Assembly: GCF_900625025.1 (NCBI RefSeq) | Contig: NZ_LR130576.1 | Span: forward strand, 62,001-126,000 | Source: Lachnoclostridium sp. Marseille-P6806 | GTDB taxonomy: Bacteria; Bacillota; Clostridia; Lachnospirales; Lachnospiraceae | DNA length: 64,000 bases | Direction: 5' to 3' | Position numbers and translations under genes: made by a program | The notes under the pieces: generated by a model | Database searches by the model: none | The model's input: the letters and a program-made list of their open reading frames with translations, nothing else | What the model was told of the DNA's origin: nothing | Shown here: in pieces, positions 11,483-51,888 of the stretch | How the letters are laid out: the number at the start of each line of letters is the position of its first letter | Numbering within the stretch: the stretch's first letter is position 1

Positions 11483-12496
11483 TCAGTGCCCCGCATGGAA
11501 TTTTTCCCCCGCTTCGATATCCGCGTCCATCGTCTCACGCAGCGCTTCGAGAGAGGCAAAATGCCGCTCCGGCCGGCGGAACCCGAGGAGCCGGCATTCC
11601 GCTGTTCTCCCGTAAACATCCCCGTCAAAGTCATAGAGATAGGTCTCCACGGTGACAGGCGGCCGCTCGCCCGGACGCTTTCCCTCCCGGATCGTGGGCT
11701 TGATGCCGATGTTCGTCATGCCGTAATAGCGTCGCTCACCGGCCGGGGCTCCGTCCTCCGGCCGCATCCCTGCCCCTGCCGGCTCCGGTTCGTTCTCCGT
11801 CCCGGCGTCCCGGAAGACCACCTCGGAATAGTAGACGCCGAACGGAGGCAGGAGTTTCCCCTCCTCCGGAACCTGATTCAGCGTGGGAATACCGATCGTT
11901 CGCCCGATCTGGTTTCCGCGGACAATCTCTCCCAGCACGGAGTACGGTCCGCCGAGAAACTTTGCCGCCTCCTCCATGCGTCCCTCCTGAATCAGCTCGC
12001 GGATATAGGTCGAGCTGACGGCTACTCCCTCGATCCTCAGCTTATCCACCTGCTGCGTGAGATAGCTGTACCGGTCGGACAGCCGATCAAGCAGCGCAAA
12101 ATTCCCCCGCCCGCCCGCGCCGAACGAGATGTCGTTCCCCGCCACAAGATAGCGCACGTTCATCTGCTCTACGAGATAGCGGCGGATATACTCCTCCGGC
12201 TCCGTGGCCGCCGTCCCGGCATTCAGCGGAAACTCGATCAGATAATCGACGCCGAGCGCGGCAAAGCATCTTCGCTTCTCCTCTCTCGTCGAGAGCTCAT
12301 GCACCGTCCGGCCTCTGCCGAAAAAGACCGCCGGAGACGGCACAAAGGTGAAGACCGCCGCGGCCAGTCCGAGCTCTTTTGCCTGCAGAAGTACGCGCAG
12401 GAGCTTCTGATGCCCGAGATGAATGCCGTCAAATTTGCCGATCGCCGCCGCAGTCGGCTCCGCAATATGAAATTCCGCAGAATTTATAATTTTCAT
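11483..12496 (-). CDS. ribF: Bifunctional riboflavin kinase / FMN adenylyltransferase
   Basis: Makes FMN and FAD from riboflavin. 337 residues. The N-terminal FAD synthetase domain has GKFDGIHLGHQKLL. The middle contains AGNDISFGAGGRGNF and VSSTYIRELIQEGRMEEA. The C-terminal flavokinase domain starts at GRTIGIPTLNQ, a variant of the usual PTAN motif, followed by LLPPFGVYYSEV. I use ATG 12496. The 84 in-frame bases upstream belong to an interspersed repeat, which leaves a degenerate ribosome-binding site (GGTGG). Last gene of the rimP operon. Confidence 0.95.
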   Translation of the reverse strand: MKIINSAEFHIAEPTAAAIGKFDGIHLGHQKLLRVLLQAKELGLAAAVFTFVPSPAVFFGRGRTVHELSTREEKRRCFAALGVDYLIEFPLNAGTAATEPEEYIRRYLVEQMNVRYLVAGNDISFGAGGRGNFALLDRLSDRYSYLTQQVDKLRIEGVAVSSTYIRELIQEGRMEEAAKFLGGPYSVLGEIVRGNQIGRTIGIPTLNQVPEEGKLLPPFGVYYSEVVFRDAGTENEPEPAGAGMRPEDGAPAGERRYYGMTNIGIKPTIREGKRPGERPPVTVETYLYDFDGDVYGRTAECRLLGFRRPERHFASLEALRETMDADIEAGEKFHAGH

Positions 12497-12501
12497 AGTA
12501 C

Positions 12502-12626
12502 CACCATACCGAAGCATCTTTATGCAAGGCACGCACTTCAAAACCGCCTGCGCGGATTTTGCGGCTACGATCAAAAGCAATTTGAGCTTCTGCGCAAATT
12601 GCTATGTAAAAAATCCGCGCATCAGT
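12502..12626 (-). repeat. Interspersed structured repeat, copy 1 (upstream of ribF)
   Basis: Divergent, partial member of the four-copy repeat family. It fills the whole gap between truB and ribF, and the truB stop codon lies within it. Stem II is intact (GCAATTTG ... CAAATTGC). The stem III half is truncated. The terminal boundary reads GCTTCGGTATGGTGG where other copies have GCTTCGGCATGGAGG. Confidence 0.75.
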
Positions 12627-13590
12627 CCGGCAGAAACATTTTCTCGGGGCGCAGACGCTGTCCGTCAAAGGAATACAGCCCCGCGAAGCGGCCATCCGAA
12701 AAATACATCCGGACGCGGACATCTTCTTCTCCCTGTGCCGACGCCCGGAGAGCGCGGAGCGCCGCTCCGTCCCCGTCCGTCTGTCCGGGCTCCATGACGT
12801 TGCCGTTCCGCAGGCGGAAATCGTGCTCCGGAAGAACATGCAGCGGAGGCGCAGACGCAAAAAAGCTGTCCGGAGGAAGAATGTGCTCGCAGAGTCTCCC
12901 CTCCTCCTGCAGCTCTCTGATCCCATCCAAGGTCAGCGCATCCTCCAGAAAGAAGCCTCCGACCCGTGTGCGGAGGAGATGCTCCATCGCGCCGCCGACA
13001 CCGAGCTTCGTCCCGATATCGTCGCACAGCGTCCGGATATAGGTTCCCTTGGAACACTGCACCCGCAGCGTAACGCAGGGGAGCTCGACGTTCTCAACGA
13101 GAAGCGCATGAATCCGCACCCGCCGCGGCGCGCGGGGCACCGTCTTCCCCTCGCGGGCGAGCTCGTAGAGCCTTCTGCCGTTCTGCTTAAGCGCCGAATA
13201 CATCGGGGGGATCTGGTCATATTCCCCCACAAACGAGCGGCATACTGCCGCGAGGCGCTCCGGCGTAACGCTCTCCCGGATCCGCTCCCCGGAGCATTCC
13301 GAGAGAATCACCGCCCCCGCGGAGAGATCCTGCGTATCCGTCGCAATGCCGAGGCGGAGCAGGGCCACATATTCCTTGTCGCGCTCCGCGATGAGATCCA
13401 CAAGCCGCGTCCCGTTCCCGAGGCATACCGGAAGAACGCCCTCCGCATCCGGATCCAGCGTTCCGCCGTGGCCGATTTTCCGCATATGCAGGATGCCGCG
13501 AAGCTTCGCCACCACATCGTTCGAGGTGTAGCCCGCCTCCTTGCGCACGGTCAGCATCCCGTTGTAATTCGACTGTATTCTATCTGCCAT
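12622..13590 (-). CDS. truB: tRNA pseudouridine(55) synthase
   Basis: Converts U55 of tRNA to pseudouridine. 322 residues. The catalytic Asp46 lies in HGGTLDPDAEGVLPVCLG. Other landmarks are YNGMLTVRKEAGYTSNDVVAKL, SNDVV, CSKGTYIRTLCDDIG and the KQNGRRLYELAREG segment. The ATG (13590) lies within the end of nrnA (overlap with its TAG), so translation is likely coupled. An alternative start is ATG 13557. Confidence 0.95.
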   Translation of the reverse strand: MADRIQSNYNGMLTVRKEAGYTSNDVVAKLRGILHMRKIGHGGTLDPDAEGVLPVCLGNGTRLVDLIAERDKEYVALLRLGIATDTQDLSAGAVILSECSGERIRESVTPERLAAVCRSFVGEYDQIPPMYSALKQNGRRLYELAREGKTVPRAPRRVRIHALLVENVELPCVTLRVQCSKGTYIRTLCDDIGTKLGVGGAMEHLLRTRVGGFFLEDALTLDGIRELQEEGRLCEHILPPDSFFASAPPLHVLPEHDFRLRNGNVMEPGQTDGDGAALRALRASAQGEEDVRVRMYFSDGRFAGLYSFDGQRLRPEKMFLPD

Positions 13591-18385: not shown

Positions 18386-18770
18386 TGCAACCTCTCTTAT
18401 TCTTTCTCTGCTCTGCAGAGCCCTCTTCGGGCGTCTCTCTGTCCCTGCCGCGGGCTTCCTCTCCGCCGCAGGCATCCAGCATATGGATCAGCCGATTCGC
18501 AAAACCGCCGTCCAGAACCGCGAGAACCGTGCGGTCTTTCTTTCCGACCGACCGTCCCAGCGCATCTCTTGTTCCGTAGCTGCGCAGCGGCACATGATAA
18601 AACGCACAGGCGTCCCGGAAGCCCTTGGCCGTATTCTTCTGCGCGTCCTCCGCGACGATCACGAGAGCGGCCCTGCCTGCTTTCACGGCTTCATCCGCCG
18701 CAAAATTCCCGGCCGCAATCCGGCCCGCCTTTTCCGCAATTCCCAGAAATCCCAGCACCCTATCCTGCAT
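18363..18770 (-). CDS. ylxQ: L7Ae/L30e-type ribosomal protein, YlxQ family
   Basis: About 135 residues in the L7Ae/L30e/S12e/Gadd45 fold; a putative kink-turn RNA-binding protein. Core: GFLGIAEKAGRIAAGNFAADEAVKAGRAALVIVAEDAQKNTAKGF, then the S...GKKDRTVLAVLD segment. I use ATG 18770, which follows GGAGGCGCCGG and overlaps the rnpM stop. The C-terminal 30 residues are charged and extend past the fold. Genes between nusA and infB in Firmicutes are regularly rnpM and this family. Confidence 0.9.
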   Translation of the reverse strand: MQDRVLGFLGIAEKAGRIAAGNFAADEAVKAGRAALVIVAEDAQKNTAKGFRDACAFYHVPLRSYGTRDALGRSVGKKDRTVLAVLDGGFANRLIHMLDACGGEEARGRDRETPEEGSAEQRKNKRGCNGENENQ

Positions 18771-19080
18771 CCGGCGCCTCCGTTCCGCGGCTTCGTCCGC
18801 TGTCCGCGCGGGGCAGTATGGCTTCAAAGCTGCCTTTGAGCCGCTCGGCCGCCTCCGGCGGAACCTCCGTCTCAAAAGCGCGGCCAAGCGCCTTTCTGCG
18901 GATTGCCCGGTCAAGGCATTCCGGATCCGAACAGAGGTATGCGCCTCTCCCCGGGGCTCTCCCCGTTCCATCCGGAACGATCTCTCCCTCCGGTGTACGA
19001 ACAATGCGGACAAGCTCTTTCTTCGGTCGGTTACGGCCGCAGCCGATGCAGCTTCGCATCGGGATTTTCTTCTGCTGCAT
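18760..19080 (-). CDS. rnpM: RNase P modulator RnpM (YlxR family)
   Basis: 106-residue YlxR-family nucleic-acid-binding protein; members bind the RNase P RNA and modulate its activity. Landmarks: PMRSCIGCGRNRPKKELVRIVR, then GRGAYLCSDPECLDRAIRRKALGRAF. The start ATG 19080 follows GGAGGATTAGT, which is the terminal segment of interspersed repeat copy 2. The in-frame codons further upstream are repeat DNA, not protein. Confidence 0.93.
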   Translation of the reverse strand: MQQKKIPMRSCIGCGRNRPKKELVRIVRTPEGEIVPDGTGRAPGRGAYLCSDPECLDRAIRRKALGRAFETEVPPEAAERLKGSFEAILPRADSGRSRGTEAPDAG

Positions 19081-19083
19081 ACT

Positions 19084-19227
19084 AATCCTCCATGCCGGAG
19101 CGTCTCTCAGCGAGGCACGCGCCGCAAAATCCGCGCATGCGGTTTTGAGGCTGCGATCAGGGGCAATTTGGGCTTCGGCACAAATTGCGTGTGCAAAAAT
19201 CAGCGCATCAGCGTGATTTTTCACACG
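19084..19227 (-). repeat. Interspersed structured repeat, copy 2 (upstream of rnpM)
   Basis: Full-length member between nusA and rnpM. It has three stems (GCCGCAAAATCCGC / GCGGTTTTGAGGC; GCAATTTG / CAAATTGC; CAAAAATCA / TGATTTTTCACAC) and ends with CATGGAGGATT immediately before the rnpM ATG. A 43-base segment of its rnpM-proximal end is duplicated on the nusA side at 19228-19270. Confidence 0.85.
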
Positions 19228-19270
19228 AATCCCCCATGCCGGAGCGTCTCTCAGCGAGGCACGCGCCGCA
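19228..19270 (-). repeat. Direct duplicate of the repeat boundary, nusA side
   Basis: Differs from 19084-19126 at one base (C for T in the GGAGG motif, giving GGGGG on the minus strand). It lies right after the nusA stop, so copy 2 is flanked by near-perfect 43-bp direct repeats. Confidence 0.85.
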
Positions 19271-19294
19271 GGCACCTTGCACCGGAGCAGACGA

Positions 19295-31916: not shown

Positions 31917-34586
31917 TCACCGCACGGACCGCACGGCCGGAATAAGGCCGTCCGGCCCGCAGCCGATCTCAATCACCGCTCCCGCGGGCACCTCGTCCGC
32001 AAGGATCAGCTTCGCCGTCATCGTCTCCACATGCTTCTGAATAAAGCGCTTCAGCGGCCGGGCCCCGAACGACGGGTCATAGGCCTCTTTCGCAATGTAT
32101 TCCGCCGCCTCCGCCGTAAGCTCCACCCGGAGCTCGCGGTCTGCAAGACGCCGGTTCAGATCCTCCATGATAAGCCCGATAATTCCCGCAATATTGGCAC
32201 GGGAGAGCGGCTTGAAAAGAATGATCTCATCAAGGCGGTTCAGAAACTCCGGGCGGAAATGTCCCCGGAGCTGCGCCTCGATCGCCTCCTCGCAGGCCTC
32301 CGAAATCGAGTAGTCCTGCGGCGCGCCGTTTTCTGTTCCGCCGTCTCCGGCCGCGCGGCCGCCCTGCGCCTCCTGCTGCTCCAGATCTGCCAGAATATCC
32401 TGCGCCCCGAGATTCGAGGTCATGATAATGATGGTGTTCTTGAAATCCACCGTCCGCCCCTGCGAATCGGTGATCCTCCCGTCATCCAGCACCTGCAGCA
32501 GAATATTGAACACATCCGGATGCGCCTTTTCCACCTCGTCGAACAGAACCACCGAATACGGCTTTCTCCGCACTGCCTCGGTCAGCTGTCCGCCCTCCTC
32601 GTAGCCCACGTAGCCCGGGGCCGCGCCGATCAGACGGGAAACCGAGTACTTCTCCATATATTCGCTCATGTCGATGCGGACCATATTGCGTTCCTCATCG
32701 AACAGCGCCTGCGCCAGCGCCTTGGCCAGCTCCGTCTTGCCGACGCCGGTGGGCCCGAGGAACAGGAAAGAGCCGATGGGCTTCGTCGGGTCCTTGATCC
32801 CGGCCTTGCTGCGCATGATCGCCTCCGCGACCCTCTGCACCGCGTCGTCCTGACCGATCACTCTCCGGTGCAGCTCCCGATCCAGATGCAGCGTCTTGCT
32901 GCGCTCGCTCTCCGTCAGCTTCTGAACGGGGATTCCGGTCCAGCGGGAAATGATCGCGGCGATCTCCTCCTCCGTCACTTTTTCATGGACGAGAGACAGC
33001 GCCTTTTCCCGTATTCTCGCCGTCTCCTCCTCAAGCCTCTTCTGCAGCTCCGGGAGCTTCCCGTACTGAAGTTCTGCCGCCTTATTGAGGTCGCCGCTCC
33101 TCTGGGCGCTCTCCAGCTCGGCCCGGGTGCGCTCCAGCTCTTTCCGGAGCTCGGACTGCCGCCCGACCTCGGCCTTTTCATTCTCCCACTGCGCCGTTTT
33201 GGCCGCCGACTCGGCCTGAAGCTCCGCCAGCTCTTTCTGCAGATCGGCGAGGCGTTCCTTTGAGATCCGGTCGTCCTCCTTCTGCAGGGAAATTTCTTCC
33301 ATTTTGAGCAGATTGATCCGGTGCTCCAGCTCGTCGATCTCGGTGGGCTTTGAATCCATCTGCGTCTTGATCATGGCGCAGGCCTCATCCACAAGGTCAA
33401 TCGCCTTGTCCGGCAGAAAACGGTCCGTGATGTAGCGGTTCGAGAGCACCGCCGCCGAAACCAGCGCATTATCCTGTATGGAAACCTTATGATAATTCTC
33501 AAAGCGGTCTTTCAGTCCGCGGAGAATGGAAATGGTGTCCTCCACGGTCGGCTCATCCACCATGACCGGCTGGAAACGGCGGGCCAGCGCCGTGTCCTTT
33601 TCGATATACTCCCGGTATTCATTCAGCGTCGTCGCACCGATGCAGTGCAGCTCGCCCCTCGCCAGCATGGGCTTGAGCATATTTCCGGCATCCAGCGCGC
33701 CGTCCGTCTTGCCCGCGCCGACGATCGTGTGAAGCTCGTCAATAAAGAGAAGTATCTCTCCCTCGCTGCTCTTCACATCCTCGAGCACCGCTTTCAGACG
33801 CTCCTCAAACTCGCCGCGGTACTTGGCGCCTGCTACAAGAGAGCCCATATTCAGGGAAAATATCTTCTTGTTTTTCAGATTCTCCGGCACGTCCCCCGCC
33901 ACAATGCGCTGCGCAAGCCCCTCGACGACCGCCGTCTTGCCGACGCCCGGCTCACCGATCAGAACCGGATTATTTTTTGTTTTGCGCGAAAGAATGCGGA
34001 CGATATTGCGGATCTCCTCGTCGCGTCCGATCACCGGATCGAGCTCGCCCTTTTCTCCTGCCCGTCTTGCCGCCGAGACAAGCTCCGTCCCGTACTTTTC
34101 CAGCGTGTCATAGGTCGCCTCGGGGTTGTCGCTGTCAACGCTCCGGCTGCCGCGGACAGAGGCCAGCGCCGAAAGAAAGCCGTCGCGACTGATATGATAT
34201 TCCTCAAACAGCGCGCGCACACTGCGGCTTCCGCTCCGGAGCAGTGAAAGGAACAGATGCTCTACGGAGACATAGGCGTCTTTCAGGGCTTTCGCCTCTT
34301 CCTCCGCGCCGATCAGTGCCTTGTTGCAGTCGCCGCTCACATAGAGTTGCGCGCCGCTTCCCTGCACTTTCGGCAGCCCCTCCACAAGCCTTTTGGCACG
34401 CCCGGTAAATTCCACGGGATCGATTCCCATTTTTTCAATCAAACCCGCGATCAGCGAGTCCTCAAGTGTCAGAAGCGAGTACAGGAGATGCTCCTGCTCA
34501 ATCTGCTGATTTCCGTATTCATAGGCAAGCTGCTCACAGCGGTTCACCGCCTCAACCGATTTTTGCGTAAATTTCTGAATGTTCAT
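31917..34586 (-). CDS. clpB: ATP-dependent disaggregase ClpB
   Basis: Hexameric AAA+ chaperone that resolubilises protein aggregates with DnaK. 889 residues. The N-domain starts [18 protein letters not shown]-1 has [18 protein letters not shown]. The coiled-coil M domain is near 405-525 ([19 protein letters not shown] onward). AAA-2 has [43 protein letters not shown] and [16 protein letters not shown] prefer ATG 34586 over ATG 34592, because GGAGG abuts the latter. That GGAGG is the end of interspersed repeat copy 3. Confidence 0.97.
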
Positions 34587-34589
34587 CGT

Positions 34590-34731
34590 CATCCTCCATG
34601 CTGAAGCACCTTGTGCGAGGCACGCATCGTAAAATCCGCGCAGGCGGTTTTACGATTGCGATCAGGGGCGATTTGGGCTTCGATGCAAATCGCCGTGCGA
34701 AAAATCACCGCATCAGCGTGATTTTTCGCAC
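34590..34731 (-). repeat. Interspersed structured repeat, copy 3 (clpB leader)
   Basis: Most symmetric copy. Stem I is ATCGTAAAA.CCGC / GCGGTTTTACGAT; stem II is GGCGATTTG / CAAATCGCC; stem III is a perfect 14-bp stem GTGCGAAAAATCAC / GTGATTTTTCGCAC. The clpB-proximal end supplies GGAGG. A second boundary-like sequence (GCGCTTCGGCATGGAGGAT on the minus strand) flanks it at 34733-34755. Confidence 0.85.
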
Positions 34732-34805
34732 TATCCTCCATGCCGAAGCGCTCTCTCCGCGGCGCATACGCCCTCACAACTCCACGGCATTCATTTTCTT
34801 TTATT

Positions 34806-51179: not shown

Positions 51180-51740
51180 TCATTTCCTGATCCGCATAAA
51201 AAAGTGATGTTCATCTTCCCCCGCCAGACGGGCCCCGTTGTTCAACATGACCCGCTGTGACGCAATATTGTCCTTATTCACACGCAGGTATATTTCATCT
51301 TCCGGAATAATGGCCCTTGCAAGCTGTACCGTAAGCCGCAGTCCTGCCGTCCCGTAGCCTTTCCCGCGGGCGTCTTTCCGGATGCTGTAACCGATATGCC
51401 CTGCACCGCTGCGGAGCGCTTCCGTCAGGCGGTGCCGGATCCGAAATTCTCCGATCAGACGATCTTCATCCCACAGATAGTAATATGTTTCGGGAACAAA
51501 CCAATCCGGCATATTGACCGGATGCTCATGAGAGATCAGCTCCGGGAGCGTTTTTTCCATATATTCCCCAAAGGAAACGCCATGATACGGGTTCGTCAGG
51601 CCGTTTTCATCCGCCGGCAGAGCCGTTGTGTATTCCCATTGTGGGGCCGCATCCCGTCTGTTGAGTTTCCGCAATTCGAGTTTTCGTGATTCGAGCTTTT
51701 GTGATTCGAGCTGTTGCATTTCCGTTTTTTGCAGCCGCAT
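51180..51740 (-). CDS. GNAT family N-acetyltransferase with repeat-coded N-terminus
   Basis: 186 residues. The CoA-binding motif is SIRKDARGKGYGTAGLRL, followed by VNKDNIASQRVMLNNGARL. The first 28 residues are an imperfect 5-residue repeat (QLESQ KLESR KLELR KLNRR) encoded by 15-bp DNA repeats at about 51655-51720. ATG 51740 follows GGAGGATTAAA, the end of interspersed repeat copy 4. Confidence 0.85.
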   Translation of the reverse strand: MRLQKTEMQQLESQKLESRKLELRKLNRRDAAPQWEYTTALPADENGLTNPYHGVSFGEYMEKTLPELISHEHPVNMPDWFVPETYYYLWDEDRLIGEFRIRHRLTEALRSGAGHIGYSIRKDARGKGYGTAGLRLTVQLARAIIPEDEIYLRVNKDNIASQRVMLNNGARLAGEDEHHFFMRIRK

Positions 51741-51743
51741 TTT

Positions 51744-51888
51744 AATCCTCCATGCCGAAGCGGTCCTCAGCGAGGCACGCGCCGTAAAATCCGCGCAGGC
51801 GGTTTTACGGCCGCGATCAGGGGCTATTTGGGCTTCGGCACAAATAGCTGTGTAAAAATCAGCGCATCAGCGTGATTTTTCACACGAA
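51744..51888 (-). repeat. Interspersed structured repeat, copy 4 (upstream of GNAT gene)
   Basis: Full-length copy. Stem I is GCCGTAAAA.CCGC / GCGGTTTTACGGC, stem II GGCTATTTG / CAAATAGCT, stem III GTGTAAAAATCA / TGATTTTTCACAC. It ends in GCTTCGGCATGGAGGATT just before the GNAT ATG. Confidence 0.85.

Follow-up and report, generated by a model that had tools for sequence, protein, structure and literature searches.

What kind of sequence can stand directly before the start codons of unrelated genes and supply the ribosome-binding site of each? The question is raised by a segment of about 140 nt before clpB, which recurs three more times within the 64,000 nucleotides analyzed here (the window). 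A first-pass annotation had proposed two answers: a mobile REP- or MITE-like repeat domesticated as a leader, or a cis-acting RNA controlling translation. Our results make it probable that the repeat is a mobile element, non-autonomous and with an RNA-like structure, that targets the Shine-Dalgarno (SD) region.

The four copies were confirmed; in the window all have minus-strand orientation, and each ends 2-4 nt before a start codon. The genes named downstream (ribF, rnpM, clpB, and a GNAT gene) were correct, and Pfam agrees. With the boundaries given by the covariance model, copy 1 (12499..12645, minus) has a diverged 5' part and precedes ribF (11486..12496, minus; PF06574, PF01687). Copy 2 (19085..19226, minus) precedes rnpM/ylxR (18763..19080, minus; PF04296), and a tail-only module ending in CATGGGGGATTC lies directly 5' of it (19227..19275, minus; core match 19234-19245). 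Copy 3, the subject of this study (34591..34731, minus), contains hairpins I-III, the tail, and the SD GGAGGAT, and is followed by clpB, whose product has Clp_N and AAA domains in Pfam. The clpB start region (34584..34592, minus; ATGACGATG) holds two in-frame ATGs, the first of which overlaps the end of the element, so the exact start is ambiguous. The tail of another element (..GAGAGAGCGCTTCGGCATGGAGGATA; 34732..34770, minus) directly adjoins copy 3 on its 5' side, as happens with copy 2, and forms its left SD; this tail was recognized by eye only and was not picked up by the tail-pattern search. Copy 4 (51745..51885, minus) precedes the GNAT gene (51183..51740, minus; PF13302). The motif CATGGAGGAT forms the 3' end of three of the four copies and supplies the SD, as had been described, and copy 1 instead ends in TATGGTGGTA. 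SD-like sequence was also found on the 5' side of the window copies. Their common strand only mirrors gene direction, because elsewhere in the host genome either strand can carry copies, each oriented like the gene that follows it. Copy 3 is not a chance pattern, since a BLAST search of the host genome (40 of 148 candidates scored) gave at least 49 matches including itself, the best non-self match having an E of 3e-43, and its fold has a z-score of -5.1.

Taken in the orientation of the gene that follows, the element folds into three hairpins and a pseudoknot. Hairpin I (GTGTGAAAAATCA..TGATTTTTCACAC) has an inner stem and a TGAT-type loop; it is followed by hairpin II (GGCNATTTG..CAAATNGCC), hairpin III (GCCGCAAAA-CCGC..GCGG-A-TTTTGCGGC), and a tail (GCC..GCTTCGGCATGG) that contains the SD. 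The three hairpins were supported by RNAalifold. In the pseudoknot, the loop of hairpin II pairs with the tail ahead of the SD, and the 3' strand of this helix ends 2-3 nt before it. The stem changes listed in the first-pass annotation are present, its stem I being stem III here. Covariation was counted in an alignment of 50 copies chosen by hand from about 215 (host, genus, and GTDB genomes), with the structure read from one copy. Pairing cells made up 91.8%, and two-sided changes occurred in 38 of the 48 pairs (mean of shuffles 22.9, best slid version 23) and in 313 cells (85.3 and 114, respectively), so the compensatory change lies well above both controls. The pseudoknot helix had 96.3% of its cells paired and two-sided changes in five of seven pairs. 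Over 193 copies, the longest perfect match between loop and tail averaged 7.0 nt, against 5.3 nt with swapped partners and 4.4 nt with shuffled letters.

We considered the possibility that this covariation reflects mere hairpin repair (quasi-palindrome correction) and rejected it; such repair would not readily account for the pseudoknot, because its strands come from different hairpins and are not two arms of one. Among 157 copies, hairpin I had 41 G-T (G-U) against 17 A-C mismatches, and all stems of the 50-copy alignment together had 52 G-U against 45 A-C. Since the excess is found in hairpin I and not over all stems, this comparison does not fix which strand is folded.

A covariance model built from 21 copies was used to search the host genome, as the first-pass annotation had suggested, and revealed a dispersed family with copies of about 133-146 nt. 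There were at least 113 matches at E<=0.01, four of them in the window; this is a lower bound, as 150 of 2474 candidates were scored, and in a few cases one copy accounts for two matches. We read 70 of the 113 and left out the remaining 43, all below 51 bits. Matches were present in 40 of the 62 genomes of the genus, host included, and this is a deep genus, in which the RnpM proteins of the relatives are 44-69% identical. In the order, searched with stricter filters and with at most 14 candidates scored per genome, 7 of 216 genomes had matches; they represent 6 of 106 genera, from two families. A hairpin I pattern found at least 110 stretches in GTDB genomes, with titles mostly of Lachnospiraceae, Acetatifactor, and the isolates 10-1, C-53, and D16-51, and the covariance model recognized 85 copies in the 80 GTDB loci supplied to it. 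Ten of these 85, cut off or low-scoring, were dropped before further reading. Lachnospiraceae bacterium 10-1 had six matches, Bacterium C-53 had 13, and Bacterium D16-51 had five. Between species the sequences differ and the fold is common, and none of the copies read spans a coding gene.

The hairpin I pattern had no match in viral contigs, and a plasmid search with one copy as query gave none. One copy used as query matched three unannotated contigs titled 'UNVERIFIED Bacteriophage sp.' (MT837007, MT836788, and MT838414; L361, L362, and L363), all from human faeces and each with one copy before an ATG; they may be bacterial DNA mislabelled as phage. The comparison with Rfam proposed earlier identified no family at threshold. 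The window gave no match at the gathering score, and eleven loci searched at E<=1 gave just a tRNA and, twice in locus L002, AS-pc01 (RF02875), with 31.5 and 29.1 bits (E 0.11 and 0.38) against a cut-off of 79. The first of the two lies on the element; we judged it a chance match, far below the cut-off. No description of such an element was found in the open-licence literature, a scope that does not prove its absence.

To score the position of the copies, we asked whether a start codon lay no more than 16 nt from the 3' model boundary and whether its ORF ran to 60 codons or more. Such a start followed 57 of 70 host copies, 62 of 74 GTDB copies, 25 of 39 copies of the genus sample, and 25 of 30 copies in the genomes G021 and G053. 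The rates at random nearby points were 0.22, 0.21, 0.20, and 0.17, in the same order, and the antisense 5' edge passed in 15, 5, 5, and 5 cases. Once tails had been corrected for internal modules, the host count rose to 60 of 70 (within 18 nt). Random placement and a lack of excess covariation, the marks of an ordinary dispersed repeat, were looked for and neither was found: these 60 of 70 (18 nt) stand against 0.22 at random points (16 nt). Among the ten host copies that fail after this correction, L053 and L094 have no visible start, L040, L021, L055, and L108 have an ATG with a short ORF, and in L085 and L091 the tail is hidden by an internal module; the others are L081 and L099. The last of these lies before a metK-like gene (C4:30908 of the host genome) in which, by eye, no standard start codon seems to stand at the usual position (CTG GAG AGA TAT..).

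Inspection by eye of two further genomes gave the same arrangement. In G113, labelled as another family, all 14 copies (median 94.9% alike) lie between an SD-like left flank and an ATG, and so do all 12 copies read of the 14 matches in G197. The genes downstream are housekeeping genes of unrelated pathways. Ten of them, chosen by us from the 70, were searched against Pfam and matched carbamoyltransferase, phosphoribosyltransferase, ClpB, YlxR, RibF, EF-type GTPase, phosphoglucomutase-type, IMPDH, EPSP synthase, and GNAT families.

The left flank also carries an SD. GGAG or GAGG occurred in the 14 nt to the left of 29 of 70 host copies, many of which have lost their 5' end, and of 50 of 75 GTDB, 18 of 40 genus, and 16 of 30 G021 and G053 copies, compared with 0.06-0.11 at random. 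Measured from the final GG on the left side, the insertion point lies at a median of 4 nt downstream. Direct joining of the two flanks would give a median GG-to-start spacing of 7-7.5 nt, and the actual spacing, with the SD of the element, is 6 nt; tandem, shared, or degraded copies were left out of this analysis and of the floating-register duplication analysis below. These spacings indicate that the element sits inside an ordinary SD/start spacer and places a second SD there. The left-flank SD, the pseudoknot, the nested modules, and the distribution all go beyond what the first-pass annotation had described.

One subfamily differs at both ends. Copies from six genomes (G008, G010, G048, G062, G066, and G073) end in CATGNNNNGGAA, without an SD, and their left flanks, read by eye, also lack an SD and end in AA. 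Only 2 of 12 such copies lie before starts, versus 23 of 27 of the other genus copies. Target side and tail therefore seem to change together, which fits a target that resembles the element's own end and fits equally well selection for SD-bearing tails at starts. In five loci (L126, L127, L128, L131, and L138, from G008, G010, and G073), CATGNNNNGGAA runs on into GAGTGAAA, with which another copy, full or partial, begins.

Mobility was examined by comparing the same sites between genomes. The rnpM search gave 57 matches in 56 genomes, and among the 29 relatives whose locus was read, none has an element abutting the start; in G073, the gap before rnpM holds an element remnant further upstream. 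G021 and G053 have 20 matches each, share five sites plus a sixth that emerged in the flank queries below, and are 92-99.8% identical in the flanks of shared sites. Ten site-specific flank pairs, of 17 prepared, were queried, and eight gave an element-free allele in the other genome. In six of the eight, the alignment shows the element as present in one genome and absent from the other in the gap from SD to start; at C57 and C93 the alleles also differ locally by a few further nt. In one example, the empty allele reads CAGGAGGTGACGATATG and the filled allele reads CAGGGGGTGAA, the element ending in ..AAGGAGGTC, and then GATATG. The other two alleles are deletions that keep the tail and its SD, before rpsO-like and amt-like genes (named by eye). 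Of the remaining two queried sites, one is filled in both genomes and one had no match outside its own genome. An empty site was also found in the pair L190/L240, which is 72% similar. The six empty/filled pairs in two closely related genomes show that the family moves or moved recently; presence and absence in two genomes are compatible with gain or with precise loss between two SD repeats.

Tail-only modules, upstream of copy 2 and elsewhere, and tandem arrays in C227 of G053 and in L194 are consistent with elements that insert repeatedly into tail SDs and decay from the 5' side. In the first of these arrays (G053:C227:3130-3408), near-identical copies stand in tandem with SD joined to 5' end. 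A different kind of nesting was noticed by eye in about 20 of the 70 host copies (among others L054, L058, L070, L074, L092, L106, and L109) and in L135 of G057, where the place of the loop in hairpin I or hairpin III is taken by a structured module (GGGACGGCATGAGACGCGAAGCGGCTCGCATCTCTGCGCGCCGGCGCAGAGAT-like) of about 85-90 nt. This module may itself be a small element lying within the one studied here.

Traces of target-site duplication were sought in the flanks. When the GTDB copies were pooled, the left flank correlated with the right end at a single register (z 5.2-5.4). Within GTDB assemblies the values were 8-23 of 1000 at register 9 and 1-28 of 1000 at register 8, so the pooled signal is weakened, as it shrinks within assemblies and is present at register 8 too. 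G021 and G053 together gave a signal with a floating register (0-1 of 2000 shuffles) and nothing at register 9 in the fixed-register test. A weak signal was found in G197 (11-245 of 2000) and none in the host genome and G113.

Two other explanations of the placement were weighed against a mobile element with a recognized target. A regulatory RNA (a riboswitch-, thermometer-, or protein-binding leader) could have been spread for common translational control, in which case the pseudoknot beside the SD, or a hairpin IV, would switch access to the SD. The strong covariation, including a pseudoknot that ends so close to the SD, the constant position before starts, and the predicted fold of one copy, L002, in which the SD is paired, all speak for such a role, but the genes belong to no common class, the sets of copies are species-specific, as in mobile repeats, and in the 29 relatives read no element abuts the rnpM start. 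SD sequestration as a regulatory switch was examined in 21 host copies and discarded: the predicted probability that the SD is unpaired was 0.36 with the element and 0.35 without it (the pseudoknot being outside the model), with no consistent effect. A mobile passenger with a replacement SD is favored over a regulator because predicted SD accessibility is unchanged, and we regard common regulation as decidedly unlikely. For the same reason, the earlier proposal of a cis-acting RNA controlling translation was not borne out, and that of a repeat domesticated as a leader found no evidence of regulation in its favor. The second explanation is insertion at random, with the SD unrecognized, followed by selection that keeps only sense, SD-supplying copies just before starts. 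It agrees with the survival of tail and SD in the deletions and with the SD-less subfamily, which is found at starts at the background rate. Neutral intergenic landings should then persist, yet all 14 of the closely similar copies of G113 are at an SD/start, and the insertion point is narrow relative to the left SD; we consider this explanation unlikely.

The agent of movement bears on two more. A derivative of IS200/IS605-type elements (PATE- or REP-like), moved by a Y1 transposase, would keep a left target motif, have subterminal hairpins, and leave no duplication; by the known logic of that group, the resemblance of the left motif to the 3' end of the element, the hairpins, the single orientation, and the joinable flanks are all as expected. 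PF01797 (Y1) was present in 44 of the 62 genus genomes, but it was absent from eight carriers of the element (host, G021, G053, G054, G058, G042, G006, and G046), and G051, with 38 PF01797 matches, had no element match. TnpB (PF07282) was likewise absent from the host, G021, G053, G054, G042, and G014, mostly drafts, and the floating-register signal of G021 and G053 disagrees with movement without duplication. Such a derivative is very unlikely in our judgment. About as improbable is a SINE-like retroelement with an RNA intermediate that a trans-acting reverse transcriptase copies; this would account for the RNA-like conserved fold and the sense-only placement in mRNA leaders. RVT_1 (PF00078) was not found in the drafts G021, G053, G054, and G014, and it was found in G051, G056, and G004, which had no element match; the host, G058, and G042 had one match each. 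The sole host match (L355; G000:C4:295370-295996) lies in an open frame of 480 residues, with near-equal frames in G004 and G042. Y1 transposase, RVT_1, and TnpB are not supported as mobilizers, as all three lacked a match in G021 and G053. The genomes of the enzyme search are mostly drafts, 63-97% complete; at 87 and 96% completeness, respectively, a single gene missed in both G021 and G053 is unlikely but possible.

Several known systems resemble the element in part. With MITEs it shares being multi-copy, short, non-autonomous, and mobile, and, like BOX/RUP/SPRITE, ERIC, and Correia elements as well, it is noncoding, folded, near genes, and modular. BOX elements are described as built of modules in PMC3049150, and the element here has nested modules. 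It differs from these types in its fixed sense placement between SD and start, its covarying pseudoknot, and its own SD, and no terminal inverted repeats were seen when the 5' end (GTGTGAAAAATCA or GAGTGAAAAATCA) and the 3' end (..CATGGAGGAT) were read directly from the alignments; the 5' end pairs with the second arm of hairpin I, which lies about 37 nt into the element. REP/REPIN sequences with RAYT (Y1) are hairpin-rich, high in copy number, and without coding capacity, as is the element, which differs in that Y1 enzymes were not found alongside it and in having a three-hairpin and pseudoknot fold of about 140 nt and start-codon placement. The MITE/REP-like reading of the first-pass annotation thus held for the manner of life, with mobility and empty sites, and failed for membership, with no terminal inverted repeats seen and no Y1 found in the host, G021, and G053.

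IS200/IS605-type elements and their PATE derivatives have a target motif at the left flank and subterminal hairpins, make no duplication, and take one orientation to the target. The element is similar in its left-flank motif, its hairpins, its single orientation, and the lack of a clear duplication, but no Y1 or TnpB was found in the genomes with recent site differences, and its target is the SD region. Some site-specific eukaryotic retroelements, such as R2 in rDNA and SINEs, have structured RNA and insert in 'safe havens' where harm is little. The present element differs from them in being bacterial and about 140 nt long, and no reverse transcriptase was found in G021 and G053. Riboswitches and ribosomal-protein leaders also have a covarying RNA fold directly upstream of genes, and PMC8040213 gives 508 candidates within 25 bp of genes. 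Unlike these, the element precedes unrelated housekeeping genes, is present or absent between close genomes, and reached the threshold of no Rfam family.

A mobile element aimed at the SD region would accommodate the observed covarying fold, placement, empty and filled sites, and tail-keeping deletions in the following way. The element would act as a folded single strand whose sense matches that of the gene behind it, and it would insert in that same sense, about 4 nt past the SD and a few nt short of the start codon. Its purine-rich 3' end would provide a replacement SD at normal spacing, so translation could still start, and the old SD would be left behind as an upstream relic. The target would account both for the sense orientation and for the position at start codons. 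Copies would decay from the 5' end toward the 3' end, because the tail with its SD is retained and the remainder can be lost, and later insertions would enter the tail SD of older copies and produce tandem copies. We infer that the surroundings of the SD are a recognized target rather than the sole place where insertions survive; the enzyme would act in trans, and gene expression would be little changed. That all this amounts to a new class, a pseudoknotted RNA-like element of about 140 nt that integrates in sense at the SD region, carries a replacement SD, has spread through Lachnospiraceae and a neighboring family, and is moved by an enzyme still to be found, is a tentative proposal to which we give not quite an even chance.

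If this is true, the bacterial ribosome-binding site would be an integration target and a harmless landing place, like the safe havens of some eukaryotic elements, and the mobilizing enzyme, itself a new one, would have a specificity for the SD. Covarying structured RNAs directly before starts could then be mobile elements and not regulators, a caution for their interpretation. It would also explain the long structured leaders on tens to more than 100 housekeeping genes per genome, which would offer a natural collection of unrelated genes that bear identical 5' leaders.
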